This document shows positions 24,772 to 40,968 of a DNA stretch of 64,000 nucleotides, piece by piece. Location of the stretch: positions 1 to 64,000 of the forward strand of contig JAQUWL010000001.1 of the NCBI GenBank assembly GCA_028692875.1. The letters run 5' to 3'. The notes beneath the pieces are model-generated. The model saw only the letters and a list, made by a program, of their open reading frames with translations, did not search any database and had not been told where the DNA came from. Position 1 is the stretch's first letter. Each line of letters begins with the position of its first letter. The translations under genes were made by a program, and so were the position numbers. The stretch comes from Sulfurospirillaceae bacterium. Its GTDB lineage: Bacteria > Campylobacterota > Campylobacteria > Campylobacterales > Sulfurospirillaceae.

Positions 24772-25170
24772 ATGACAGAATTATCGCATATGGATTTTGC
24801 CCATCCATATTTTGGTGCTTTCTTTTTGGTTGTTTTTGGTGCTGGCGTGTTTTACGGCATTACGGTTTTAGCAAGAGCTGTTAGCCGAAAAATGGCACGT
24901 TTGGATACAGAAAAACTAAAATTGACCATCTACGAATGTGGTCCTGAAGTGACCAAACAGCCCAACCGTATCTCGGCACACTTTTATCTGTTTGCCCTGT
25001 TGTTTATCTTGTTTGATGTGGAGATTATCTTTATGTTTCCATGGGCGGTAAACTTTAAAACGCTTGGAATGTTTGGATTTGTGGAGATGATTTTATTTAT
25101 CGGATTGCTAAGTATCGGTTTTGTATATGCATGGAAAAAAGGAGCGCTCGAATGGCACAGCATAAGATAA
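24772..25170 (+). CDS. nuoA: Complex I subunit A
   Basis: 132 residues, three membrane helices. Family motif [39 protein letters not shown] is recognisable (Cys of the A/D switch loop and the FDVE acid). It is part of the Q-site end of the membrane arm. First gene of the operon; nuoB begins within its 3' end. Confidence 0.95.
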
Positions 25171-25661
25171 ATTATCTTCAAGAAGGCGGGCTTCCCGTAG
25201 CGCTTACAACGGTCGATAAACTAGTTCAGTGGGGACGTTCTAACTCCCTTTGGCCTTTGACTTACGGTTTAGCATGTTGTGCTATCGAGATGATGGCAAC
25301 GGGTGCAAGTCGTTATGACTTTGACCGATTTGGAACGATTTTTAGGGCAAGTCCTAGACAAGCGGATGTTTTGATAATCGCTGGAACTCTAACCAAAAAA
25401 CACTCTCCTTTTATGAGGCGACTTTATGACCAGATGCCAGAGCCAAAATGGGTTATAAGCATGGGAAGTTGTGCTAACACTGGCGGTATGTTTAACACCT
25501 ATGCGACAGTTCAAGGAGCTGATAGGATTATTCCTGTGGATATCTATCTTCCTGGATGTGCACCTAGGCCCGAGACTCTTCAATACGCATTGATGTTACT
25601 TCAAAAAAAGATACGCACTGAAAGTGCATCTAAAAAACTTAAACCAAAAAGGCTAGTATGA
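25152..25661 (+). CDS. nuoB: Complex I subunit B (cluster N2)
   Basis: 169 residues from the ATG at 25152 (MAQHKINYL), which overlaps nuoA by 19 nt. Cluster N2 ligands: the tandem Cys in [17 protein letters not shown] and PGCAPRPE. It passes electrons to quinone at the tip of the peripheral arm. Ends with a basic tail (KKLKPKRLV). Confidence 0.96.
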
Positions 25662-26458
25662 TGAGAGCCTATCAAGATAAAAATAACGTACAAAAAAAGC
25701 CCTACTATACAGATAGATTTTGGGTTGCTCCGCAAATTCCAAAAGATGATGTTGAAAGTGATGAGGTTTTTGCCTCTGATGTAAAAGCGTTGAAGGAAAA
25801 TTTTGAAATTGGCGAAGCCTATATCCAGCGAGGTCAATTAGTTGTCTATATCAACGCAAAAAACAACGTAAAAGTGTTGAAATTTGTCAAGGAAAAGTTG
25901 CAATACAATATTCTTTCAGAGCATAGTGCAATAGATTGGCTTGCAAAGCGTGGAGAGTTTGAGATTTTTTATCAACTACTCTCTACATGTAAGAAAAAAC
26001 GTATGAGAATAAAATGTTTTATAAAAGAGAAAGAGACATTAAAAAGTGTAACATCTATCTACAAAAGTGCGGATTGGGCAGAGCGTGAGATGTATGATAT
26101 GTTCGGTGTTATCATAAGTGGACATCACTATATGAAGAGACTTTTGATGCCAGATGATTGGTTTGATTATCCTCTTAGAAAAACATATCCTCTTCAAGGC
26201 GATGAGGCTGCTCAATGGTATGAGATTGATAAGATTTTTGGAAAAGAGTATCGTGATGTTATCGGTCCAGAGCAAAGAGATAGTGCTAGAATCGACCCGA
26301 GCGATACACATAACTTTGCACATATCAAACACGAAGTTCCTTTTGGAGCAAAGCCTAGCGATAAAGAGGTCTTTACGGATTATCAAGAAGAGGGCGGTGT
26401 AACAATCATCCGAAAACTTAAAAAAGAAGATGCAAAAATCTTGAAAGGCAGACCGTAA
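25658..26458 (+). CDS. nuoC: Complex I subunit C
   Basis: 266 residues. The 30-kDa subunit signature is clear in [19 protein letters not shown] and [14 protein letters not shown]. The N-terminal 60 residues are an extra region compared with stand-alone NuoC and are hydrophilic. It contacts NuoD and NuoB at the base of the peripheral arm. The ATG overlaps the nuoB stop by 4 nt. Here nuoC and nuoD are separate genes, unlike the fused nuoCD of E. coli. Confidence 0.95.
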
Positions 26459-26460
26459 CG

Positions 26461-27687
26461 ATGCAAAAAGTCAATAAACTTCAACCGTTTTTTGAAAACT
26501 TAGTATTTGAGCGAGAGGACAATCATATGATTGTCAACTTTGGTCCTCAGCATCCCAGCTCGCACGGTCAGTTGCGTTTGATTTTGGAGCTTGATGGCGA
26601 GATGGTAGTGAAGGCAACTCCAGATATCGGATATCTTCATCGAGGTATGGAGAAGATGGCGGAAAATATGATTTATAATGAGTTTTTGCCAACTACTGAT
26701 AGGATGGATTATATCGCTGCAACATCCAATAACTACGGATTTGCATTGGCGGTCGAAAAACTTTTAGATATAGAGGTGCCACGACGTGCTAAAGTGATTC
26801 GTATGATGCTTTTGGAGCTTAACCGCATCACCTCACATCTTTTTTGGTTGGCATGCCACGCACTTGATATTGGTGCGATGACTATCTTTTTATATACATT
26901 TAGAGAGCGTGAATATGCGATAGATTTGATAGAGGATTATTGTGGAGCACGTTTAACGCATTCATCTATTCGTATCGGTGGAGTTCCTTTGGATTTGCCA
27001 AAAGATTGGATAGAAAAACTTCAAGCATTTGTAGATAGATTGCCAGCGGATATTGCTGATTATGAGGGATTGTTAGACCAAAATCGTATTTGGAAGATGA
27101 GGCTTGAGGGCGTAGGCGTTGTTACGCCTGAGATGGCACAAGATTGGGGATGTAGCGGACCGATGCTTAGAGGTAGTGGTATCGCATGGGATATCCGAAA
27201 AGAAGAGCCTTATGAGCTTTATGACGAGGTTGAGTTTGATGTGCCTGTAAGTACTACATGTGATAGTTACGGAAGGTATAAATTGCATATGGAAGAGATG
27301 CGTCAAAGTTTAAGGATTTTAAAACAGTTGATGCCGATGTATGCACAAACAACTCCAGAGATTATGGCTCATGCACCGCAATATATCTCAGCACCAAAAG
27401 AGCAGATTATGACTCAAAATTACGCTTTGATGCAACATTTTGTGTTAGTTACACAAGGTATGCGTCCGCCAGTTGGAGAGGTGTATGTTGCAACAGAATC
27501 GCCAAAAGGCGAGCTTGGTTTTTATATCAACTCACAAGGCGACCCGTATCCTTATAGACTTAAGTTGAGGACACCCAGCTTTTTCCATACAGCATTTTTA
27601 CAAGAGTTATTGCCAGGGCATTATCTAGCGGATGTTGTGGCTATTATTGGAAATTCAAATATCGTCTTTGGCGAAATAGATAGATAG
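26461..27687 (+). CDS. nuoD: Complex I subunit D (49-kDa)
   Basis: 408 residues. Conserved quinone-site segments are visible: [15 protein letters not shown] (His of the Q-site), [45 protein letters not shown] and the C-terminal [12 protein letters not shown]...IVFGEIDR. It builds the quinone pocket with NuoB. Two nucleotides separate it from nuoC. Confidence 0.97.
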
Positions 27688-27695
27688 GACTAGAC

Positions 27696-27941
27696 ATGCA
27701 AAGATACGATTTAAGACATCTAAAAGATGATTTTTACAGCAGAATGAGTGAGCTTGTAAGTGCTACACGCGAGGGCGAGGTGTCAGTATTTATTTTTGAG
27801 ATTGGCGATTTTTCAAGTGTTCAAAAGAGTATCCAGCTTGCAAAAGAGCAAAATTGTGAAGTGATGAATTCGTTAAAATTCAACGAGGTAGACTGGACGA
27901 TGGTTGTCAAAAAGATGCCAGCAGGTGGTTTAAGTGAATAA
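27696..27941 (+). CDS. Lineage-specific complex I protein in the NuoE position
   Basis: 81 residues, no signal peptide, no Cys cluster of the 2Fe-2S NuoE type (only one Cys). It occupies the slot of nuoE, as do Cj1575c of Campylobacter and HP1264 of Helicobacter. It therefore cannot carry cluster N1a; in those organisms complex I takes electrons from flavodoxin instead of NADH. Likely role: part of the docking surface for the alternative donor. Overlaps the next gene by 8 nt. Confidence 0.8.
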   Translation: MQRYDLRHLKDDFYSRMSELVSATREGEVSVFIFEIGDFSSVQKSIQLAKEQNCEVMNSLKFNEVDWTMVVKKMPAGGLSE

Positions 27942-28776
27942 GGCACATTTTTTTAAATCTTTACATGTAGACCAAAGCAGTTTAGCCTTTACATGTAAGG
28001 ATTCGGATTGTATTATTGTTTTAGGAACCATGCTTTCACGTGACAACAAAGAGTTATTGGATGAAGTTTTACAAGCCCAAAATAACGGTGCTAAAATCGC
28101 CTATTTATTTACGATGGAAGATGGACTTTTGTGCGATAAGGCAACTTTTTTTAGCAGGTATGAAACAGGAAGCGAAGAGGGTGTTTTGGGAATGTTGGCA
28201 AAAGCACTCTGTTTTGAAACACTTAAAGATGGTAAACTCAAAGAGTATTTTGAAGAGTTGGATGAGGGCTATATCAGTGCAGAGTCAAATATCGGAGAAG
28301 AGGAGATTGAAGAGATAGCCTCTTTGTGCAATAACTCCAAAAATCCTATGCTAATCGTTGGAGAAGATATTTTTGCACACAAAAGAGCTGAAAATATAGC
28401 TATGTTAGTAAGTGTTTGTGCAAATAATTCATCTTTAAAAGTGCTTACACAAGGTCAAACAGTTAGTTCGAAAAAAGAAGAGATTCCTGAAGAGATAGAG
28501 GATTTGAGAAGTTTTGACGGAACAGTAGTTTATACATGTAAGGCACTTAATGATGAAGAGACACATCAGCTTATCGGCTCTTCACAGTTTCAAGTTGCCG
28601 CCAAAGTTAAAGATAAACAACCCATTTCGATAATGATTGCAGGTCAACAAAGTGATAGAGTTTTTGTTTTGGACGAGACTCTTAAAGGCACTATCGCATT
28701 GATGCCAAGTTCGGATATAAAAAGTCAAACCTACCGCTATGCAGTAGCGAAAATAGTTAAGCGAGAAGTTCAATGA
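27934..28776 (+). CDS. Lineage-specific complex I protein in the NuoF position, NuoG-C-domain-like
   Basis: 280 residues, no FMN/NADH glycine-rich loops and no 4Fe-4S Cys set, so it is not NuoF. It matches the slot and size class of Cj1574c/HP1265. Compared by eye with NuoG encoded next door, blocks align in the same order: CIIVLGTMLSRD (about 25-36) with FVVSLGGMLRSD (about 378 of NuoG), GSEEGVLGMLAKAL with GAEEAIVYLLLDLF, and LIVGEDIFAHKRAENIAMLV (about 138) with LIVGEDVYTHKQSANIAKLL (about 517). It appears to be a shortened duplicate of the NuoG molybdopterin-fold domain. Overlaps nuoG by 4 nt. Confidence 0.8.
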   Translation: MNKAHFFKSLHVDQSSLAFTCKDSDCIIVLGTMLSRDNKELLDEVLQAQNNGAKIAYLFTMEDGLLCDKATFFSRYETGSEEGVLGMLAKALCFETLKDGKLKEYFEELDEGYISAESNIGEEEIEEIASLCNNSKNPMLIVGEDIFAHKRAENIAMLVSVCANNSSLKVLTQGQTVSSKKEEIPEEIEDLRSFDGTVVYTCKALNDEETHQLIGSSQFQVAAKVKDKQPISIMIAGQQSDRVFVLDETLKGTIALMPSSDIKSQTYRYAVAKIVKREVQ

Positions 28777-31178
28777 GCGAAATAACTTTAACAATCGATG
28801 GTAAATTATGTGTTGCGAAAGAGGGCGAAAGTGTCCTAAATGTCGCACGAAGAAACGGTATTTTTATACCAGCTCTTTGTTATCTAAATAACTGCTCACC
28901 TACGTTAGCGTGTCGTTTGTGTTTGGCGGACGTGGATGGCAAAAGAGCCTATACATGTAACGCTAAAATCAAAGAGGGCATGGTTGTTGTTACAAAGAGT
29001 GAAGAGATTGAAAAAGAGCGCCGAGCCATTATGGAGGTGTATGATATCAACCATCCTTTAGAGTGTGGAGTGTGCGACCAAAGTGGCGAATGTGAATTGC
29101 AAAACTATACTTTAGAGATGGGCGTAGATAGCCAAAGCCACTGTATAGCCGACACGCAAAGACCTAGTAAGGATTGGGGATTTATACATTATGACGCATC
29201 TTTGTGTATTGTTTGCGAGAGGTGCATAACAGTATGTAAAGATATGATAGGTGATTCTGCACTAAAAACAGTTCCACGAGGTGGAGCGGAGCTTGATAAA
29301 GAGTGGAAAGAAAAGACTCAAAAAGACGCATACGCTATGTGGAACAAAATGCAAAAATCCATCGTTGGACTTGCAAGCGGTGGCGATACGCTAGAGTGTA
29401 GCGATTGTGGAGAGTGTACGGCGGTGTGTCCTGTTGGAGCATTGGTGGGAAGCGATTTTCAGTATAGCTCAAATGCGTGGGAGTTGAAAAAAATCCCAGC
29501 TTCAAATCCTCATAGTAGCGACTGTTCTTTGATGTATTATGATGTAAAACACACAAATACATCCATATCAAAACCAAAAATCTATCGTGTAAGTAGCGAG
29601 TACAACTACGCACCACTTCACGGAGGTGCAAGGTATGGATATGATTTTCAAAACGAGGTTGATGGCAAAGATGAAGAGGCTTTTGACAAAGCGGTAGCAT
29701 TTTTGAAAAATGAAGCCGACACGATAGCTTTTAGTAGTTATATCACAAACGAAGAGGCTTTGATACTTCAAAAACTAAAAGAAAAATATGGCTACAAACT
29801 TATAAATCCCGATGCGTATAGATATCAAACATTTTTGAAAAATTTTACAAAAACTAGCGGAAAAAGTCTGTATAGTGGCGATTTGGATAAAGTAAGAGCG
29901 AGCAACTTTGTAGTCTCTTTGGGTGGTATGTTGCGAAGCGATAGCCCAAATGCAGGATATGCTATGAACAATGCGTTGAGTATGAACAAGGGTGCAGGAA
30001 TCTATTTTCATCCTATCGGCGATAAAGTCGTCAGCGGATACTCTAAAAACATCTTAAGTGCTTTACATGTAGTGGGTGCAGAAGAGGCGATAGTCTATCT
30101 TCTTTTGGATCTGTTTGCCGATAAAGAGAAATTGCCAGCTTCAATAAAAGAGTATTTGGCTGATTTTCACACAATAACCAAAAAAACCATAACAGATGGC
30201 GAAGAGGGACAAACCAAAGAGATAGAGGTTGATACAAATGCACTTTTGGAGATGATCGGACTTGAAGAGGACTTTTGTGAAAAAGTCGAAAAGCTTTTGG
30301 ATAAAAAAGATACCTTCAGCCTTATAGTTGGCGAGGATGTTTATACCCATAAGCAGAGTGCAAATATCGCTAAATTGCTAGGGCTTTTAGAGAGAACAAC
30401 TCCTTTTGATGTACTTCTTGTGCCATCTAAAACCAATACTCTAGGTGTTGCTTTGATATGTGATTTGAGTAAAACAAGAGGTCATAAAACTTTAGGCTAC
30501 AACGAAAAAGGCGACTTTACTTTGTGTGCTTTAGGCAAGGGTGATTTGGATATGCCTGCCCTTAATCAGCAAGAGGGAACTTTTTCTTCGATGAATAAAC
30601 GAGTTGTTCCAACCAATGTAGCGGTTCCTTTTGATGGTTATTGTCTAAATGATATTGCAAATGCTCTTGATTTGGAGCGTGAGTGGACGGTTGATTATAC
30701 AGCACATTTGCCGAAAAAAGCAGGCTTTAAAGCGGTTGCTTTTGATTCATTGCCAAATGAGTTTGATAATGCGGGCAATGAAAACAGAGGTTATTTGCTA
30801 GAGATTTTTGAGCTTACATGTAGTGATGAAATAGAGTCCATGAGCGATATAAAAGTATACAAAGAGCCTTTGGTATATCGTGCAAATCCTATCAACCAAT
30901 TTAGCCCTTTTACCAATAAAGCTCATCAGTTAAATGAAGCAGGTGCACTTTATGCTTCGCAAGAGTTTGTTGCTTCTTTGGGGTTGAAGCATAAAGATAT
31001 GGTTAATATAACAAACCATCAAGGAGATAAGCTTGTGGTCGCAGTTATGGTAGATAGTAGTATCGAAGGAATGATACCGTATCTGCCGACTTTTGATAGA
31101 AAGATTGATGTATCGCCATTTTTCAAAGATGGATACAGATTTGCAGAAGTAACAATAAAAGGTGTAAGCCATGAGTGA
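28773..31178 (+). CDS. nuoG: Complex I subunit G (Fe-S protein)
   Basis: 801 residues. N-terminal 2Fe-2S ferredoxin domain (ALCYLNNC...ACRLCLADV...YTC), His-Cys3 cluster (HPLECGVCDQSGEC), and a 4Fe-4S pair (CIVCERCITVCKD, CSDCGECTAVCPVG). The segment where the extra N7 cluster ligands occur in some bacteria reads NPHSSDCSLMY, so N7 ligands are mostly missing. The long C-terminal region is a molybdopterin-oxidoreductase-like fold without a cofactor site. It carries electrons along the peripheral arm. Confidence 0.94.
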   Translation: MSEITLTIDGKLCVAKEGESVLNVARRNGIFIPALCYLNNCSPTLACRLCLADVDGKRAYTCNAKIKEGMVVVTKSEEIEKERRAIMEVYDINHPLECGVCDQSGECELQNYTLEMGVDSQSHCIADTQRPSKDWGFIHYDASLCIVCERCITVCKDMIGDSALKTVPRGGAELDKEWKEKTQKDAYAMWNKMQKSIVGLASGGDTLECSDCGECTAVCPVGALVGSDFQYSSNAWELKKIPASNPHSSDCSLMYYDVKHTNTSISKPKIYRVSSEYNYAPLHGGARYGYDFQNEVDGKDEEAFDKAVAFLKNEADTIAFSSYITNEEALILQKLKEKYGYKLINPDAYRYQTFLKNFTKTSGKSLYSGDLDKVRASNFVVSLGGMLRSDSPNAGYAMNNALSMNKGAGIYFHPIGDKVVSGYSKNILSALHVVGAEEAIVYLLLDLFADKEKLPASIKEYLADFHTITKKTITDGEEGQTKEIEVDTNALLEMIGLEEDFCEKVEKLLDKKDTFSLIVGEDVYTHKQSANIAKLLGLLERTTPFDVLLVPSKTNTLGVALICDLSKTRGHKTLGYNEKGDFTLCALGKGDLDMPALNQQEGTFSSMNKRVVPTNVAVPFDGYCLNDIANALDLEREWTVDYTAHLPKKAGFKAVAFDSLPNEFDNAGNENRGYLLEIFELTCSDEIESMSDIKVYKEPLVYRANPINQFSPFTNKAHQLNEAGALYASQEFVASLGLKHKDMVNITNHQGDKLVVAVMVDSSIEGMIPYLPTFDRKIDVSPFFKDGYRFAEVTIKGVSHE

Positions 31179-32163
31179 AACAGCAGTTATTATAGAGACG
31201 ATTGTTAAAGCCGTAGTTGTGCTATCCGTTGTGGCGGGAATGGGTGCTTTTGCGACATGGATTGAGCGTAAAGTTTTGGCGTTTATGCAACGCCGTCTAG
31301 GACCTATGCATGTAGGACCTTATGGTGTGTTGCAACTTGCAGCCGATGGTATTAAGCTTTTTACAAAAGAAGACATCATCCCTCAAAATGCTCTAAAGCC
31401 TATTTTTGTTTTAGCTCCTATTGTGGCGGCTACTTCGGCGTTTGTTGCGATGGCAGCTATCCCATATTTCCCAGAATTTACCGTATTTGGCTATACCGTT
31501 CATCCGATAGTTTCAGATATAAATGTAGCTTTATTGTATGTTATGGGTGTGGCTTCGGTTGGTATTTACGGACCGTTACTAGCTGGTATGAGCAGTGCAA
31601 ACAAATGGTCGCTTTTAGGTGCGGCTCGTGCAGTTGTGCAAATCCTCTCTTTTGAAGTAGTTAGTGGTCTATCAGTTTTAGCGCCGATTATGATGATAGG
31701 CTCTTTATCCTTGATAGATATTAACGATTTTCAAAGCGGTGGAGTGACAAATTGGCTTTTGTGGAAACAACCTTTAGCATTTTTACTGTTTGCGATTGCG
31801 GGATTTGCCGAGACAAATCGTTCTCCTTTTGATACGATTGAGTTTGAAGCGGAGATAGTTTCTGGTTTTGCGACAGAGTATTCGGGTATGAGATGGGGTC
31901 TGTTTTTTGTTGGAGAGTATGCCAATATGATAACGATTGCCGTGCTTGTTAGCATTATATTTATGGGTGGCTACAATCCTATCTGGTTTATCCCAGGTGC
32001 GATTGTTATGCTACTTAAGGTTTCGTTTTGGATTTTCCTTTTCTTGTGGGTAAGGGCGGCTTGGCCTCATGTAAGACCAGATCAGTTGATGTGGGTTTGT
32101 TGGAAGGTTTTGATGCCTTTGGCGCTGGTAAATATTTTAATTACCGGCATAGTGTTGGTATAG
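31171..32163 (+). CDS. nuoH: Complex I subunit H
   Basis: 330 residues, about eight membrane helices. Family motifs WIERKVLAFMQRRLGPMHVGPYGVLQ, DGIKLFTKED and AGFAETNRSPFDTIEFEAEIVSGFATEYSGM, which line the quinone channel and the E-channel. The start overlaps nuoG by 8 nt. Confidence 0.97.
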   Translation: MSETAVIIETIVKAVVVLSVVAGMGAFATWIERKVLAFMQRRLGPMHVGPYGVLQLAADGIKLFTKEDIIPQNALKPIFVLAPIVAATSAFVAMAAIPYFPEFTVFGYTVHPIVSDINVALLYVMGVASVGIYGPLLAGMSSANKWSLLGAARAVVQILSFEVVSGLSVLAPIMMIGSLSLIDINDFQSGGVTNWLLWKQPLAFLLFAIAGFAETNRSPFDTIEFEAEIVSGFATEYSGMRWGLFFVGEYANMITIAVLVSIIFMGGYNPIWFIPGAIVMLLKVSFWIFLFLWVRAAWPHVRPDQLMWVCWKVLMPLALVNILITGIVLV

Positions 32164-32172
32164 GAGGCTCAC

Positions 32173-32787
32173 ATGGAACTAAAAGATTTTCAAAATCGAG
32201 ACATCGCACCAGGATATATCTTTTTTGATGGCGAAAAAAAGCCTCAAAATGGTTGGGAATCCTTCAAGCGTGTTGTTAAGCGAAGCGTAAAAGGTGAGTT
32301 GTTTGTAGGGCTTTGGATTGTATTTCGAGAGATGATACGTTTTGATATCCATACCGTACAGTATCCGATAGAAAAGATAGAAATGTCGCCTAGATATAGA
32401 GCTATTCATAGATTGCTTAGACTTTTAGAGAGTGAAAATGAGCGTTGTATCGGTTGTGGTTTATGCGAAAAGATTTGTATCGCTAACTGTATTCGTATGG
32501 AAACACGTTTGGACGAAAACAAACGCAAAGAGGTCACAAAATATAGCATCAATTTTGGACGTTGTATCTTTTGTGGATATTGTGCAGAGGTTTGTCCAGA
32601 GTTGGCGATTGTTCATGGAAATGATTATGAAAATGCGAGCGAACAAAGAGCGCATTTTGGTCTTAAAGAGGATATGTTAACGCCGATAGATACTTTTAGG
32701 GCGAAACAACAAAAAGAGTTTAGCGGTTTTGGAGCACTTAGCGACAATGCCGATGAAAACATCAAAAAAACGCCTCTAGCGTACTAA
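32173..32787 (+). CDS. nuoI: Complex I subunit I (2 x 4Fe-4S)
   Basis: 204 residues with two ferredoxin motifs, [15 protein letters not shown] and [15 protein letters not shown], ligating clusters N6a and N6b. The N-terminal ERKxP/RxxH segment is replaced by a lineage-type sequence ([14 protein letters not shown]). Connects the NuoG side to NuoB. GGAGG precedes the ATG. Confidence 0.95.
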
Positions 32788-32798
32788 AGGGGTAGGTA

Positions 32799-33341
32799 AT
32801 GTATGAGATAATAGCTTTTTATACGTTTTCGGCACTTGTCATTGGATTGTTTGGCATAGTCGTTTTAAGCAAAAATGCTCTATATTCAATGACCGCACTT
32901 GCTGGCGGAATGGTTTTTATATCGGGTTTTTTCTTTATATTGGATGCCGAATTTTTAGGAGTTGTCCAAATCGTGGTTTATACTGGAGCCATCATGGCAC
33001 TCTACGCATTTGGTATGATGTTTTTTGATACTACACGAGATGTTAAAGAAGATATTAGATGTAAAAAGATTTTTTATACACTTAGTATACTCTCAGCTGT
33101 TTTGGTTTTGATTGTGCTGAGTGCGCCTATTTTTTCAGCCAATATTGAAGCCATCTATCCTACCTTAGAAGGTGTTGGCAATGTTCAGACTATCGGTCTT
33201 TTGTTATTTACAAAATACCTAGTAGCTTTTGAGTTGGCGGCAATTATGCTTTTGGTGGCGATGATTGCTGGTATTGTTTTGGTTGGGAAAAAGTTGGATG
33301 CACAAAGTGATGACTTAGAAGTGGCAAAGGAGCTCAAATGA
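32799..33341 (+). CDS. nuoJ: Complex I subunit J
   Basis: 180 residues, five membrane helices; the pi-bulge helix region is seen in GVVQIVVYTGAIMALYAFGMMF. Membrane-arm subunit that couples redox change to proton pumping. Overlaps nuoK by 4 nt. Confidence 0.94.
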   Translation: MYEIIAFYTFSALVIGLFGIVVLSKNALYSMTALAGGMVFISGFFFILDAEFLGVVQIVVYTGAIMALYAFGMMFFDTTRDVKEDIRCKKIFYTLSILSAVLVLIVLSAPIFSANIEAIYPTLEGVGNVQTIGLLLFTKYLVAFELAAIMLLVAMIAGIVLVGKKLDAQSDDLEVAKELK

Positions 33342-33640
33342 TAGGGTTGGAACATTATCTTGTTTTAACGGGTATTTTATTTTCGATTGGAATTGTTGGC
33401 GTGATTCGCAGAACAAATCTTTTGATGCTGTTTTTTTCCACGGAAATTCTTCTTAATGCGGTCAATATCGGTTTTGCTGCGGTGTCAAAATATTATGGCG
33501 ACTTAAATGGTCAGATATTTTCCTTTTTTATCATCGCTATCGCTGCAAGTGAAGTAGCCGTTGGGCTTGGATTGTTGGTGCTTTGGTATAAAAAAGAGGG
33601 CACCATTGACTTGACTAGCTTACAAATGATGAAGGGGTAA
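33338..33640 (+). CDS. nuoK: Complex I subunit K
   Basis: 100 residues, three membrane helices, with conserved acids in FFSTEILLNAVNI and AIAASEVAVGLGLL. Part of the antiporter-like chain of the membrane arm. Its last base is shared with the nuoL ATG. Confidence 0.96.
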   Translation: MIGLEHYLVLTGILFSIGIVGVIRRTNLLMLFFSTEILLNAVNIGFAAVSKYYGDLNGQIFSFFIIAIAASEVAVGLGLLVLWYKKEGTIDLTSLQMMKG

Positions 33641-35499
33641 TGATGGAAAAATATCTCTATATAGCTCTATTTGCGCCTCTTGTTGGCTCGCTATTTGTTG
33701 CACTATTTGCCTCACGTCCTAAGATGCTTTTTACAGGTATTTTAGCCTCCGCATTTATCGGTATCTCGATGATAGCTTCGTTTGTTTTGTTGTTTCATGT
33801 TTACAACCATGAGCCTTTACATGTAGAGATGATGGACTGGATAAGTGCTGGCAATATCGACATACCTTTTGGTTTTATTGTGGATGAGGTTTCAGTTATT
33901 ATGATGGTAACTGTAACGCTGGTTTCAACTGTTGTACATGTATACTCTATCGGCTATATGGATCACGACAAGAGTTTCAATCGTTTCTTTACATACCTAA
34001 GTGCGTTTGTTTTTTCGATGTTGATTTTGGTTATGAGTGATAACTTTGTAGGTCTTTTTATCGGATGGGAAGGCGTAGGACTTTGTTCTTGGATGCTTAT
34101 TGGATTTTGGTACCACAAACATAGTGCTTCGTGGGCAGCAAATGAGGCTTTTATTATGAACCGTATCGCTGACCTTGGTATGCTTATGGGACTCTTTTTA
34201 ATATATTGGAATGTCGGCTCACTTCAATACAGCGATGTTTTTGAAGCGGTTAAAACACTAAATCCTGCCTTGGTTGGAACGATAGGAGTATTGTTATTTA
34301 TCGGCGCAATGGGCAAATCCGCACAGTTTCCACTTCATACGTGGCTAGCTGATGCGATGGAAGGACCAACTCCTGTTTCGGCTTTGATTCACGCCGCTAC
34401 AATGGTAACAGCGGGCGTTTATTTGGTTATTAGATGTGGAGAGATTTATACTATCATCCCTCAAGTAGGATTTGGCATCGCTTGTCTTGGTGCTTTTGTT
34501 GCGGTGTTTGCAGCCTCTATGGCTCTTGTAAATAATGACTTAAAACGAATTATTGCCTACTCGACACTCTCGCAACTAGGATATATGTTCGTAGCTGGCG
34601 GATTGGGTGCTTATTGGATAGCTTTGTTTCACTTGATGACTCACGCTTTTTTCAAATCCTTACTCTTTTTGGGTGCAGGAAATGTAATGCACGCAATGCA
34701 CGATGAGTTAAATATCAAAAAAATGGGCGGACTTTACGGCTCTATGAAAGCTACGGCGATTTTGATGAGTGTTGCTTCTGTGGCATTGGCTGGCATATAT
34801 CCGTTTGCTGGATTTTTCTCAAAAGATAAGATTTTAGAAGTTGCATTTAACGAGGGTGCTTATTTTTTATGGTTTGCACTTTTTATCGGAGCGGGCTTGA
34901 CGGCATTTTATAGCTTTAGACTTGTGATGCTTGTTTTCTTTGGCGAGAAAAAGTACGGACATGAACTTCATCCGCACGAAGCACAACCATTCGTGATTTA
35001 TGCTTTGATGCCTTTAGGACTGCTTGCGGCTATTTCAGGCTTTTTTGAACATAGTTTTAGAGAGTTTACAACACGCTTGCTAAGCGATTATGGTGTGCAT
35101 TTGGAACACCACATAGAGGTTATTCTTATCGCCTCAACTCTAGGCATTGCTATCAGCGGTATCGCTTTTGCGATTTACATGTATGGAAAAAGAGGCGGAT
35201 TTAGTGCTTGCTGGGAAAAGAGTTTTGGATATAAAGTCTTGAGCAATCAATACTATATCCCAAAACTTTACGAGATGGTTATCATAAAACCTTTCGGGGT
35301 AGCCTCGGAGTTTATGTGGAAAAAAATAGACGTCAAGATAGTAGACTTTACAGTGGACTTGATAGCTAGAGTGCTTTATGCTAGTGGAGAGAAAAGCCGA
35401 AAAATGCAAAGTGGAAATCTTTCCGATATGCTTCGCTGGATGATTGTGGGCATTGTTATATTGCTTGCTCTTGCGATTTTTTATAGACCAATGGTGTAG
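33640..35499 (+). CDS. nuoL: Complex I subunit L (proton pump)
   Basis: 619 residues, some sixteen membrane helices. Antiporter-like motifs: FIGWEGVGLCSWMLIGFW (pump Glu), GKSAQFPLHTWLADAMEGPTPVSALIHAATMVTAGVYL (pump Lys and broken helix) and LMTHAFFKSLLFLGAG. The long lateral helix at the C-terminus is present but poorly conserved. Distal proton channel. Confidence 0.97.
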   Translation: MMEKYLYIALFAPLVGSLFVALFASRPKMLFTGILASAFIGISMIASFVLLFHVYNHEPLHVEMMDWISAGNIDIPFGFIVDEVSVIMMVTVTLVSTVVHVYSIGYMDHDKSFNRFFTYLSAFVFSMLILVMSDNFVGLFIGWEGVGLCSWMLIGFWYHKHSASWAANEAFIMNRIADLGMLMGLFLIYWNVGSLQYSDVFEAVKTLNPALVGTIGVLLFIGAMGKSAQFPLHTWLADAMEGPTPVSALIHAATMVTAGVYLVIRCGEIYTIIPQVGFGIACLGAFVAVFAASMALVNNDLKRIIAYSTLSQLGYMFVAGGLGAYWIALFHLMTHAFFKSLLFLGAGNVMHAMHDELNIKKMGGLYGSMKATAILMSVASVALAGIYPFAGFFSKDKILEVAFNEGAYFLWFALFIGAGLTAFYSFRLVMLVFFGEKKYGHELHPHEAQPFVIYALMPLGLLAAISGFFEHSFREFTTRLLSDYGVHLEHHIEVILIASTLGIAISGIAFAIYMYGKRGGFSACWEKSFGYKVLSNQYYIPKLYEMVIIKPFGVASEFMWKKIDVKIVDFTVDLIARVLYASGEKSRKMQSGNLSDMLRWMIVGIVILLALAIFYRPMV

Positions 35500-35508
35500 G
35501 AGTAGCTT

Positions 35509-37035
35509 ATGGATCATATGTTATCGTTAATTATATTTTTCCCGTTTGTGGCGGGGTTGCTCGGCTTTTTGGTCAATAAAGAGAGTATCAGGTCGTATGG
35601 TGTTGTGATTGCAGGAATTGAATTTCTGCTCTCCATTGGGCTTTGGATAGCGTTTGATACCGCAAATGCGGGTTATCAATTTGTTGAATTTAGCGCACTA
35701 ATACCTAGTTTTGGTATGAGTTATTATCTAGGAGTTGATGGTATTTCACTATTTTTGGTAGTGCTTAGTACTTTTACTGTGTTGGTTTCACTGATTGCAC
35801 TAAATATCGACAATGATGTTAAAAATCTAATTATCGCCGTTTTGTTTTTAGAGATGACGATGGTAGCAGTATTTTTATGTTTAGATGTTATTTTATTTTA
35901 CGCTTTTTGGGAGCTATCTTTAGTGCCAATGCTTTATATCATAGGTGCGTGGGGCTCTGCCAATCGTGTGTATGCAGCCATAAAGTTTTTCCTCTACACT
36001 TTTGCTGGCTCGGTATTGATGCTAGTTGGTATCTTGTATCTAGGCTATTTATATTTTCAAGCAACAGGCGTTTGGAGTTTTTCACTTCCTGATTGGTATC
36101 TTGTGCAGTTGCCGTTCAATGTCCAATTATGGCTTTTTGGAGCCTTCTTTTTGGCATTTGCCATCAAAGTTCCGATGTTCCCATTTCATACTTGGTTGCC
36201 CTATGCACACGGACAAGCACCAACTATCGGCTCAGTGATATTGGCAGCAGTTCTTCTTAAGATGGGAAGTTATGGTTTTGTTAGGTTTTCTTTGCCACTT
36301 TTTCCTGATGCTACTGTTTACTTTGTCTATCCTATCGCTATTATTGCGGTAATTATGGTTATTTACGCTGCGATGGTCGCATACGCACAAGAGGATATGA
36401 AGCAAGTTATCGCTTATAGCTCTATCTCACATATGGGTATCGTTGTGCTAGGAACATTTGCACTCAATGCCGAGGGCATCACAGGCTCTATCTTTTTAAT
36501 GCTAAGTCACGGTATTGTTAGTGGCGCTCTGTTTATGCTAGTAGGAGTTATTTACGACAGAAGACACACAAAACTTATGAGCGAATTTGGCGGACTTGCA
36601 ACAGTTATGCCAAACTTTGCAACAGTGTATGGCATTATGCTTATGGCATCTGTTGGACTGCCTTTGACTATCGGTTTTGTTGGAGAGTTTTTGTCTTTGG
36701 CTGGATTTTATAGGGTTGATTGGTTAGTAACTATGTTGGCAGGTTCTGGCATTATCTTGGGCGCAGTTTATATGTTAAGTCTATACAAAAAATCATTTTT
36801 TGGCGTTGTTACCAAAGAGGAAAACAGAACTCTAAAAGATTTGAACGCAAAAGAGCTTTTCGCACTTGTGCCTATGGTTGCTTTGGTTATCGCTTTGGGC
36901 GTTTATCCAAAACCTGTTTTAGATACGATTGATATCAGTGTTAAAAAGATGATTGTCTTGATGGAAGCAAAAGCTATACATGTAGAGACGAAAGCCTTTC
37001 TGATAAATGCCAATAGCATAGGGGAGGTGCAATAA
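35509..37035 (+). CDS. nuoM: Complex I subunit M (proton pump)
   Basis: 508 residues. [39 protein letters not shown] (pump Glu), [37 protein letters not shown] (pump Lys) and [13 protein letters not shown] are typical. GTAGGAG precedes the ATG. Middle antiporter-like subunit. Confidence 0.97.
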
Positions 37036-38516
37036 TGTCCGATTTTATTTCACTATCAAGTCTTAATATTCCTTCGCTACTTCCGATGGCGATTTTGGTC
37101 TTTGGAGCACTTTTTATCATCTGTATTGATTTGGCTGTTAAAAATTTAAACAGAAGTTTCTATACGATTTTAAGCGTATTGTTTATCGTTTTAGACTTAG
37201 GCGTTCTTATAGGCTATAACGGAGCTAGCAGAGGCTTTTTTGATACGGTCTTGGTTGATGGTATCGCTATTTTGTCTCAGTGTATCATTTTGATAGCATC
37301 GGCATTTTTTATACCACTTTCTCTAAGCAATCGTCACTTTAAAGAGTATGAGATGGCAGAGTATTATGCTCTGTTTTTGTTTATGATTGTGGGTTTTCAG
37401 TTTATGGTCTCAAGCGACAATCTTATCGTTATCTTTATCGGACTAGAGACTGCTAGCTTATCTTTGTATACCCTAATAGCACTTCACAACCGTGCAAAAG
37501 CGTTTGAGGCGGCGATAAAGTATTTTACGATGGGTGCACTTGCTGCGGGATTTTTTGCTCTGTCTTCTTTGATTTTTTATGCACTTACAGGAAGTGTAGA
37601 GATCAACACTATCGAGGCTGTTTTAAAAGAGCGAGAGTTTCAGCCACTATCTGCTGTTTTGGCAGGAACGGTTTTTATGATTGCTGCTCTTGGATTTAAA
37701 CTCTCTGTCGTGCCTTCGCACACATGGACGCCTGATGTATACGAGGGAAGTTCTGCGCCTTTGGCTGGCTATATGTCTATTGTGCCAAAGATAGCAGGTT
37801 TTGTTGTGGCTATGCGATTTTTTGAGATGCTTATAGCTTCTGATATTATTTGGTTAGAGTATATTTTGTATGGATTAGTTGTTATTACGATGACACTAGC
37901 CAACATAACGGCTCTTGTTCAAGAAGATGTAAAAAGAATGTTAGCTTTTAGTTCTATCTCACACGCAGGATTTGTTTTATCGGCGATTTTGATAGGAACA
38001 ACTCAAGCAAATGCAGGTCTGTTTTTGTATTGGATTTTGTTTATGTTTACTAACTTAGGTGCATTTAGTATGTTATGGATTGTTAGACATAAAAACAATC
38101 TTTGGGATGAGCGTTATCAGCACCCTTTTTCAAAATTTTCTGGCATGGTAAAGTTGATGCCTACGACCGCTACTATTATGGGTGTTTTTATGTTTGCTCT
38201 TGCTGGTATGCCTCCTTTTTCAGTATTTTGGGGAAAGTTGTATCTTATAAGTGCGGCTGTAAATAGTGGTTTTATCTATTTGGCCGTAATTATGGTAGTT
38301 AATAGTGCAATCGCAGTTTACTACTACATGAAGTTAATGATATATATGTTTTTAAAAGAGCCTGTTGCAAATACAAGTGCAGTTTATGAAACAAACGCAT
38401 CTACAACGCTTAAAGTGATTGTTGGTTTTGCAACCGTGGTTACATTGAGTGCTGTTTTGTTTGTAGAGCCTATCTTAAATATCGTTACAAAATTTGTCAT
38501 TTTAAGTGGCTTTTAA
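37035..38516 (+). CDS. nuoN: Complex I subunit N (proton pump)
   Basis: 493 residues, fourteen membrane helices: [17 protein letters not shown] (pump Glu), [36 protein letters not shown] (pump Lys) and [15 protein letters not shown]. It shares one base with nuoM. Last gene of the nuo operon; a strong hairpin follows. Confidence 0.97.
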
Positions 38517-38580: not shown

Positions 38581-40968
38581 ATGAAATATATTATATTTTT
38601 TACCCTTTTTTTTACGCCATTGTTTGCTATGAATATCATACTCAATAGCGCCAAGGAGAACCGATCTGCTTATGCTTTGTTGCATATTATTAATGATACA
38701 CCTGTGAGCTGCATGGCAATCCCTGATGCTTTTGAAAAAGAGCACTATATATGCAAATTTGACGGTATGGTTTCTAAGCTACCTGAAGCTAGAAAAACCC
38801 CTATGGTCGCAATAGACTTTTATGAAAAAGAGAAAATGTTTTACGTTAGTGTTGCTCCAAAAGTTCCATCAAAACTTATGCCTATGGATGAGTATTTATA
38901 TAACACCCAAGATGTTTTGCCTATTTTAAAAAACAGAGACAAGCAGAAACATTGGGTTGTTTTATTGCAAGAAAAAGCCCCAAAAAAAGAGTTTAAAAAA
39001 GCAGAGGTGTTGGATTTTCCAGTAGAGTTTTTAAAGGAACAAAAGCCTTATGTTGGGGCATTGGATTTAAATGGTGCTCCTATATCTTATGCTCAAACCA
39101 AAGATATATCACTATATTTGGATATCAAAAAAGATTTTGAATCTGAAGATTATGAGGGTGTTCTAAAAAGTGTAAAAAGAGTTATTGAGCACTATCCAAA
39201 CTCAATTTTTAAGAGTGAATTGGAGTTGTATAATATAAGGTCTATGGATAGATTGGCAAACTCTAAAGATGACCAAATAGCAAAGCACTATGACCACAAC
39301 GAAGTTGTAAAGCTTGCTCGAAGTTGGATTAAGGAGTTCTCGGGAGATGAAAATATTCCAGAAGTTTTGTTGTATATCTCAAAATCTTATCTAAAATTGG
39401 GCTTAACCTCAGACGCAAATTATTTTATTGATATCTTGGTAAGCGAGCATCCGCAGAGTGAGTACACTAAAAAAGCGATTTTGATTTTTGCTGATTCACT
39501 TTATGTTAAAAATAAAAAAGATAAAGCTCTTAAACTCTACTCAGATGTTTTATACTCATCTCAAAATGTAGATATAGCATCTGAGGCGGCAATACGACTT
39601 ACGGCATACAATATAGATGCTGGAAGAACAAAAGAGGCTAAAGAGTATCTTCTTAAAGTGCTTAATGCAAATTCAGTTTATCTTTTAAGGGACAAAGAGG
39701 AGACCTATGCTTTAGCTCAAAAACTCTATGTGAGTGGTTTATTTGATGTTGCAGCAAGAGTTTTAGATCTGTTGTTGAGTGATATGGACAAAAAAAATGA
39801 ACTTAGAGAAGAGTATTTAAAAGAGAGTGGAGATTGGCATGTTAAGGCAAATGACGTTCCTAAGGCCTATGACAGATATAAAGAGTATCTGAATGAATAT
39901 AAAAATGGTAGCTACTTGGGAGAGGTTGAAGAAAAGCTCGATGCTCTGTTTTTTGATTTAAAAGAAAATAATGAGACCAAACTTGAGAACTATTATGACA
40001 AACTTATAGGCTCTTATGACAATAAAATAGGCGATAGGGCAACAATAGAAAAAGGAAAACTGCTTCTAAAGCAAAAGAGATTTTATGATGTGCTGGAGAT
40101 GGAAGATGCACTTCGCAGATCAAGCGATGGTAACAATTCTGAAATAGAAACCATAATAAACACTTCTGCGCAATCTCTAGCTAGAGACAATCTGGAAAAT
40201 GATAAATGCATAGAGGCTATATCTTTGATAGAAAAATACAAGATAGACTTTTTTGGAATAGATGATGAGAGTCGATTGCACGCCTGTCTTATGAGGCTTT
40301 CTCGTTTTGATAACGCCAAAGAGGTAAGTAGTTCACATCTCAATGATGCCAAGATTGAAGATAAGTTTTTCTGGATAAAAAAAGAGGTTCTCGCACTTTA
40401 CAAGATGGGTAAATACAAAGAGGTAGTTGCACTAAAAAAAGATATTTTTACACTTTGGGAGCTTTTAAAAACACCTCTTGAGCTTCAAGTGATGCAAAGT
40501 ATTTTGTCATCACATTTGCAGTTAAAGCAACAAGAAGAAGCTTTGGCTATGGCTGATGTGATAGAGAAAAACTATAATGACAACTTTTCAAATATAGATA
40601 TTTACGCTGATATCGTCAAAACAGCGAGTGACTTAAAAGATGATTTGGTGTTGAGTAGATTTGCTAAAAAACTTTTAGATTTGCAGGAAAAACACAACTC
40701 TCATCTTTACTCCCCATCTGTTGAGTTTAGCTATATCGAGTCACTTAAAAGGCTAAACCAAAATGCTCAAGCACTTAGCGTGACAGAAAAACTACTCTCA
40801 ATATCTTTACATGTAAAGGAAAAGGCAAGAGCACTTTATACTGCCGGCGAGCTAAGTATGAAACTTAAGGATATAAAAAAAGCCGAAGAGTATTTTATTA
40901 GATGTGTTGATACAAATGAGACAAGTTCGTGGAAAAATATTTGTGGTGAAAACCTAAAGTTATTCTAA
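38581..40968 (+). CDS. pflA: Flagellar motor scaffold protein PflA
   Basis: 795 residues with a signal peptide (cleavage near PLFA-MN), an N-terminal beta-rich part, and a long array of helical TPR-like repeats (from about residue 170 to the end). Size, signal peptide, repeat architecture and position directly after nuoN match PflA (paralysed flagellum A) of Campylobacter. There it forms, with PflB, a periplasmic disk part that supports wide stator rings of the flagellar motor. Identity rests on context plus architecture, as TPR sequences are variable. Confidence 0.8.
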   Translation: MKYIIFFTLFFTPLFAMNIILNSAKENRSAYALLHIINDTPVSCMAIPDAFEKEHYICKFDGMVSKLPEARKTPMVAIDFYEKEKMFYVSVAPKVPSKLMPMDEYLYNTQDVLPILKNRDKQKHWVVLLQEKAPKKEFKKAEVLDFPVEFLKEQKPYVGALDLNGAPISYAQTKDISLYLDIKKDFESEDYEGVLKSVKRVIEHYPNSIFKSELELYNIRSMDRLANSKDDQIAKHYDHNEVVKLARSWIKEFSGDENIPEVLLYISKSYLKLGLTSDANYFIDILVSEHPQSEYTKKAILIFADSLYVKNKKDKALKLYSDVLYSSQNVDIASEAAIRLTAYNIDAGRTKEAKEYLLKVLNANSVYLLRDKEETYALAQKLYVSGLFDVAARVLDLLLSDMDKKNELREEYLKESGDWHVKANDVPKAYDRYKEYLNEYKNGSYLGEVEEKLDALFFDLKENNETKLENYYDKLIGSYDNKIGDRATIEKGKLLLKQKRFYDVLEMEDALRRSSDGNNSEIETIINTSAQSLARDNLENDKCIEAISLIEKYKIDFFGIDDESRLHACLMRLSRFDNAKEVSSSHLNDAKIEDKFFWIKKEVLALYKMGKYKEVVALKKDIFTLWELLKTPLELQVMQSILSSHLQLKQQEEALAMADVIEKNYNDNFSNIDIYADIVKTASDLKDDLVLSRFAKKLLDLQEKHNSHLYSPSVEFSYIESLKRLNQNAQALSVTEKLLSISLHVKEKARALYTAGELSMKLKDIKKAEEYFIRCVDTNETSSWKNICGENLKLF

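Follow-up and report, generated by a model that had tools for sequence, protein, structure and literature searches.

In a Sulfurospirillaceae bacterium, the operon for complex I (nuoA-N) carries at the NuoF position a small protein, here called F. We studied it in the first 64,000 nucleotides of contig JAQUWL010000001.1, referred to below as the window. We consider it probable that F descends from NuoG1, a second NuoG-like protein of related bacteria, by loss of the iron-sulfur (Fe-S) half and of one internal block, that it serves as a redox-inert scaffold, and that it has an extra role independent of this complex I. The F gene has a GTG start codon that overlaps the 3' end of the gene for the E-position subunit (E), and it is followed by nuoG. 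The order E - F - NuoG fits the Cj1574c/HP1265 (NuoY) family and recurs in named records of Sulfurospirillum, Poseidonibacter and Arcobacter; F is assigned to NuoY by this operon position and not from records tagged Cj1574c/HP1265. No NuoF family of Pfam or NCBIfam matches F, which lacks the FMN/NADH, SLBB and 4Fe-4S domains of a canonical NuoF.

Searches and operon comparisons were run across the order, with 150 genomes of the class sampled. In many families the best match of F is an open reading frame (ORF) of about 750 residues, NuoG1, which is matched by both halves of F. NuoG1 belongs to operons of the order nuoC - nuoD - E (about 76 residues) - a flavoprotein of about 670 residues - NuoG1 - NuoG2 (about 828 residues) - nuoH; named records of this type include Hydrogenimonas and Sulfuricurvum. 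The order E - F - NuoG2 is found in the window's own family, in Sulfurospirillum, Poseidonibacter and most Arcobacter, and in most groups of families f2 and f3. In the operon layouts F and NuoG1 are mutually exclusive at the same position, and NuoG2, the type of the NuoG next to F, is constant. Compared by profiles, F and NuoG1 are 42% identical over 258 columns (E = 1.9e-63), which is twice the identity of F to NuoG2 (21%). A tree on the F columns splits the neighbour-type NuoG2 (36 rows) from F and NuoG1 together (59 rows) with support of 99/99. Relative to NuoG1, F has lost about 345 N-terminal residues (the ferredoxin-like, Fe-S-bearing part) and an internal block of about 115 residues. 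Because F is nearer to NuoG1 than to NuoG2 both in identity and in the tree, and holds the same place in the operon, it is best read as a shortened NuoG1.

The preliminary description of the window had proposed that F was copied from the C-terminal domain of the NuoG beside it. Homology and a MopB fold are indeed shared by the two proteins, as described below, but the nearest relative of F is NuoG1. That F is a direct duplicate of this domain, dating from the lineage in which the NADH module disappeared, is extremely improbable, although the genes are homologous and adjacent: the identities and the 99/99 split both place F with NuoG1, the two substitute for each other at one operon position, and F lacks the beta-hairpin insert of the neighbour and has in common with NuoG1 the motif GY[LI]SAESN. 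A recent duplication of the neighbouring NuoG is ruled out by the tree and profile comparisons. Judged from these alignments, the duplication behind F is older than had been supposed and was one of a whole NuoG, F having arisen later by truncation.

The reverse course, in which the small form is ancestral and NuoG1 is an F-like protein joined with a copied Fe-S half of NuoG, draws on the root of the F/NuoG1/NuoG2 tree, which is not firmly fixed, and on the support of 20/60 for a NuoG1 clade without outgroups. It is nevertheless highly improbable. NuoG1 has a complete layout of Fer2, His-Cys 4Fe-4S, Fer4 and MopB, including the internal block deleted in F and four invariant cysteines. Escherichia coli NuoG and the formate dehydrogenases have the same layout of Fe-S and MopB parts. 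When E. coli NuoG and four canonical NuoGs are added as outgroups, F forms one clade (96/98) and NuoG1 becomes paraphyletic, as would be expected if F arose within NuoG1. A single origin of the truncation is likely. Two points count against it, namely that these outgroups are long branches and that the support of the F clade without them is weak (60/97). The four invariant cysteines open the MopB part of NuoG1 (A3 columns 10, 13, 17 and 48) and probably bind a further 4Fe-4S cluster; most of these cysteines are gone from the window NuoG (NPHSSDC).

The likeness of F to the window NuoG had been noticed by eye as four pairs of blocks in the same order. All four were located, at residues 29-37, 79-92, 102-111 and 140-156 of F (window 28018-28401) and residues 382-390, 435-448, 458-467 and 517-533 of NuoG (window 29916-30371). 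In a single BLASTP comparison the two full sequences are 26% identical over 176 columns (E = 3e-7). The Smith-Waterman score of the pair is 106, against a mean of 40.2 after shuffling (standard deviation 5.4, maximum 67, z = 12.2; none of 1000 shuffles reaches 106) and a best score of 59 for F among 49 other ORFs of the window. Chance similarity is ruled out by the shuffles and these other ORFs. The profile-profile alignment that had been suggested as a check is clear: hhalign of the F family with NuoG gives E = 8.2e-29 and a probability of 99.8% over 256 columns at 21% identity. The shared region, put earlier at NuoG residues of about 375-540, is present but was drawn too short, since F residues of about 180-279 also align to NuoG residues of about 684-800, the C-terminal barrel. 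The alignments indicate that F and NuoG are homologous across nearly the whole of F. F begins at the equivalent of NuoG residue 371 or NuoG1 residue 346, approximately, and a domain search found no Fe-S domain in it, the N-terminal 2Fe-2S and 4Fe-4S ferredoxin-like domains of NuoG being missing. NF006305, the NuoG model of NCBIfam, recognises F (6.9e-25) and 29 of the 34 F-family proteins; the score of F is 87 bits and the curated cut-off is 591. F is a homologous fragment and not a full NuoG (COG1034 / TIGR01973 / NF006305). Within its residues 17-175 lies the fuller F/NuoG1 motif L-D-x-G-Y-[LI]-S-A-E-S-N-x-G-E-E-E, whose form in the window is LDEGYISAESNIGEEE. Residues E77, D110, G112, E117 and F219 are invariant in all 34 aligned members of the family. 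There is no conserved cysteine column, the best one having cysteine in 10 of the 34.

Structure prediction with AlphaFold2 (AF2) was done on single chains only, and folds were compared by way of common templates. The model of F has a predicted local distance difference test (pLDDT) of 93.6 and a predicted template modelling score of 0.91. With Foldseek, its best matches in the PDB are formate dehydrogenases (ForCE1 and FdhF, 3.4e-8 to 1.6e-7); E. coli NuoG (7nz1_G) is matched at 3.3e-5, and dimethyl sulfoxide reductase and other MopB enzymes are matched as well. Searches of the PDB by sequence, with the F protein or the F profile, gave no meaningful match. The model of residues 236-801 of the window NuoG (pLDDT 89.9) matches the same PDB templates as F, in keeping with the earlier prediction of a shared fold, and the secondary-structure elements of the two models follow in the same order over the shared stretches, except for the beta-hairpin insert. 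The models predict a MopB fold for F, with a Rossmann-like half and a C-terminal barrel.

F is probably redox-inert. A domain search revealed no recognisable cofactor domain, and a protein without conserved cysteines is unlikely to hold an Fe-S cluster. F may retain the docking site of NuoG1 on the distal end of NuoG2 in complex I, and E and F together would then make up a redox-inert platform at the electron-input tip, a landing site for a small low-potential donor. In this organism the donor may be ferredoxin, which would feed the clusters of NuoG2 via the E/F platform. Two MopB folds stacked at the tip of the complex, as first suggested for this operon, are plausible; with models of single chains only, the place of F in the complex is putative. 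The E homologue of Helicobacter pylori, HP1264, is reported to bind flavin mononucleotide (FMN; PMC6269979).

In the published Campylobacter jejuni model, at least as it is cited in PMC4178425, flavodoxin is the donor at Cj1574c, and F would be a receptor for flavodoxin that belongs to complex I only. A long-chain flavodoxin is encoded in many genomes with F, as that model would have it, but F also occurs where no flavodoxin match (TIGR01752, PF00258) was found: in the window genome, which is 99.87% complete, in four genomes of family f5 with a stand-alone F, and in G076, where F is in the operon. In the case of Sulfurospirillum multivorans, the proposed donor is ferredoxin, and the flavodoxin homologue was not detected (PMC4585668). 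The receptor model is unlikely to account for F. The flavodoxin partner named in the preliminary description thus finds no support here, in the window genome or in the four f5 relatives that keep F without the epsilon-type complex I, the kind encoded in the window. Flavodoxin was also considered as a factor that tracks F and was rejected, as F occurs with and without it and F-less genomes (f2 g26, G093 and G163) have it.

The epsilon-type NuoD is absent (no match at E <= 1e-100) from 32 of the 150 sampled genomes, and F is retained in 25 of these 32. By group, the retention is 7/14 in f2, 3/3 in f3 g7, 5/5 in f3 g16, 4/4 in f7 g12 and 6/6 in f5. The E gene has been lost from 31 of the 32. The f2 genomes without epsilon-type NuoD have no NuoH match, and f3 g7 has a weak match of hydrogenase type only. 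In f7 g12 a solitary F occupies the operon scar next to the AAA ATPase gene that precedes nuoA, and in f2 g18, f2 g31 and f3 g7 it does so next to the gene for the DUF7494/tetratricopeptide repeat (TPR) protein that follows nuoN; in f5 and f3 g16 it lies away from the scar. The AAA ATPase gene marks the scar in Arcobacteraceae whose complex I has been replaced. In G128, a relic of E of 50 residues, with the N-terminal part gone (L077:6417-6539, - strand), lies directly 5' of an intact stand-alone F, next to nap genes. The F tree requires at least seven changes between operon and stand-alone location.

Several of these genomes have another complex I. In the genomes examined of f7 g12 (L128, L137) and f3 g16 (L129, L130), the epsilon type has been replaced by a canonical type, with a fused NuoCD, an E of about 161 residues, an F of about 410 and a NuoG of 457-478, and the stand-alone F lies elsewhere in the genome. 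In the f5 genome examined (G071, L131), the genes of a complex I in which C and D are fused and E, F and G are missing lie between the AAA ATPase and TPR genes that border nuoA-N in the window. F of G071 sits in a haem-biosynthesis cluster (L080).

It is quite improbable that the stand-alone F is a slowly decaying, functionless leftover of the lost operon. Many copies do stand exactly at the old operon site, but those of f5 and f3 g16 do not. The reading frames are intact in four families, and the pairwise ratios of nonsynonymous to synonymous substitution (dN/dS) are 0.04-0.18 in f2, f3 and f5, at high dS, with several dS values near saturation. The five invariant residues and the loss of the neighbouring E gene from nearly all of these genomes also speak against mere persistence. 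This retention under purifying selection supports a role of F that is independent of the epsilon-type complex I. The reason to propose a second role is that F survives the loss of this complex, of E and of detectable flavodoxin.

Some results weigh against such a role or limit it. The ratios in f7 g12 are 0.39-0.53, as a leftover might show, so that retention there could be partly relaxed. F is missing from seven of the 32 genomes, all f2, which also suits decay and means that the extra role is not universal. Five f2 g19 genomes with NuoD present (G078, G091, G094, G121 and G186) have no separate F match, and complex I therefore does not always need F. The analysis brought to light no partner of the stand-alone F. 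Pyruvate and 2-oxoglutarate oxidoreductases (POR/OOR) were considered as a factor that tracks F, but PF01855 matches occur in all 38 genomes tested and are uninformative. In the G078 operon (L135), NuoG comes directly after E and consists of two overlapping ORFs, one of 305 and one of 510 residues.

As to the nature of the second role, we suggest with low confidence that F serves some other enzyme of low-potential electron transfer as a subunit for docking or stability. The chances are about even that the main function of NuoY (Cj1574c type) in Campylobacterota is a housekeeping one outside complex I, which would explain why F has outlived complex I in several families. It would also fit the reported finding of Weerakoon and Olson (2008) that Cj1574c is essential in C. 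jejuni, where nuo genes are said to be deletable. Transposon-directed insertion-site sequencing lists the E gene Cj1575c among the essential genes of C. jejuni and C. coli, but not of C. lari (PMC10077673).

The flavoprotein of about 670 residues that precedes NuoG1 combines the Fe-S region of NuoF (NADH_4Fe-4S, PF10589) with Fer4_20 and Pyr_redox_2 (PF07992). From its domains it looks like a NuoF with a GltD-like module in place of the NADH/FMN domain. Loci that encode it are L057:7575-9608 (- strand), L067:2666-4708 (+ strand) and 19 more. G040, a genome of the window's own family, has an operon (L076, G040:C168:2500-14500) in which the genes for E, the GltD-like protein and NuoG1 are 64-81% identical to those of family f4, and for the C, D, G2, H and I genes the nearest relatives are in f1. 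The E-GltD-NuoG1 cassette has apparently replaced E-F inside this operon by horizontal transfer; it is known from one contig of a 180-contig assembly. If the swap is real, E and F functionally stand in for E, GltD and NuoG1, and the two sets look like interchangeable input modules.

The features of the window are collected in Table 1. The AAA ATPase and DUF7494/TPR genes on either side of its nuo operon also border the operon, or its scar, in several other families.

Table 1. Coordinates of the nuo operon, its flanking genes and the compared segments of F and NuoG in the window
Feature	Coordinates	Strand	Details
AAA ATPase with winged helix	22960..24693	+	577 residues; conserved 5' neighbour of nuoA
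nuoA, nuoB, nuoC, nuoD	24772..27687	+	
E-position subunit (NuoX / Cj1575c / HP1264 type)	27696..27941	+	81 residues; PF16514, 6.8e-35
F-position subunit (NuoY / Cj1574c / HP1265 type by operon position)	27934..28776	+	280 residues; probable truncated NuoG1 descendant
F residues 17-175, Rossmann-like half of MopB core	27982..28458	+	alignment, residue mapping, AF2 model
F residues 180-279, C-terminal beta-barrel, counterpart of molybdopterin-dinucleotide-binding domain	28471..28770	+	alignment
nuoG (NuoG2 type)	28773..31178	+	801 residues; found in both operon types; NF006305, 1147 bits
NuoG residues 371-568, homologous to F residues 17-176	29883..30476	+	profile-profile alignment and mapping
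NuoG residues ~466-489, beta-hairpin insert of neighbour-type NuoG	30168..30239	+	missing from F and NuoG1
NuoG residues 569-683, internal block in NuoG and NuoG1	30477..30821	+	deleted in F
NuoG residues 684-800, homologous to F residues 180-279	30822..31172	+	profile-profile alignment and mapping
nuoH to nuoN	31171..38516	+	
DUF7494/TPR protein	38581..40968	+	795 residues; 3' neighbour of nuoN

For the subunit that took over from the NADH module in the Campylobacter-type complex I, this would provide a concrete origin, a second NuoG without its Fe-S half. Relatives have kept an alternative input module of NuoF-FeS/GltD type, which suggests that the input modules of complex I swap as cassettes. 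If F works without the epsilon-type complex I, models of electron flow in C. jejuni and H. pylori in which F is solely a subunit of complex I need a second partner of F. In the literature, Cj1574c/HP1265 is described as a gene that replaces nuoF or is annotated as NuoF (PMC4178425, PMC6682613, PMC3561388); more specifically, nuoX and nuoY are described as replacements of nuoE and nuoF (PMC6682613), and HP1265 is annotated as NuoF (PMC3561388). In the open-access literature, to which the search was confined, subscription literature being outside it, nothing was found on a descent of NuoY from NuoG, on a tandem arrangement of NuoG1 and GltD, or on NuoY where complex I is absent. The origin from NuoG and the persistence of NuoY without complex I are provisionally regarded as new.

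Among known systems, Cj1574c/HP1265 (NuoY) has the same E - F - NuoG order as the window, and the F proteins of 238 residues (L079) and 343 residues (L075) belong to the same family. The C-terminal MopB part of NuoG/Nqo3 is homologous to F and has the same fold, but F is a separate protein without the Fe-S domains and one internal block. Compared with formate dehydrogenases and the MopB superfamily at large, F is a minimal core that lacks an Fe-S domain and most of the pterin-binding regions. The tandem NuoG1 of Hydrogenimonas and Sulfuricurvum occupies the position of F as its full-length equivalent, and differs from it in having the full Fe-S complement and a flavoprotein partner.

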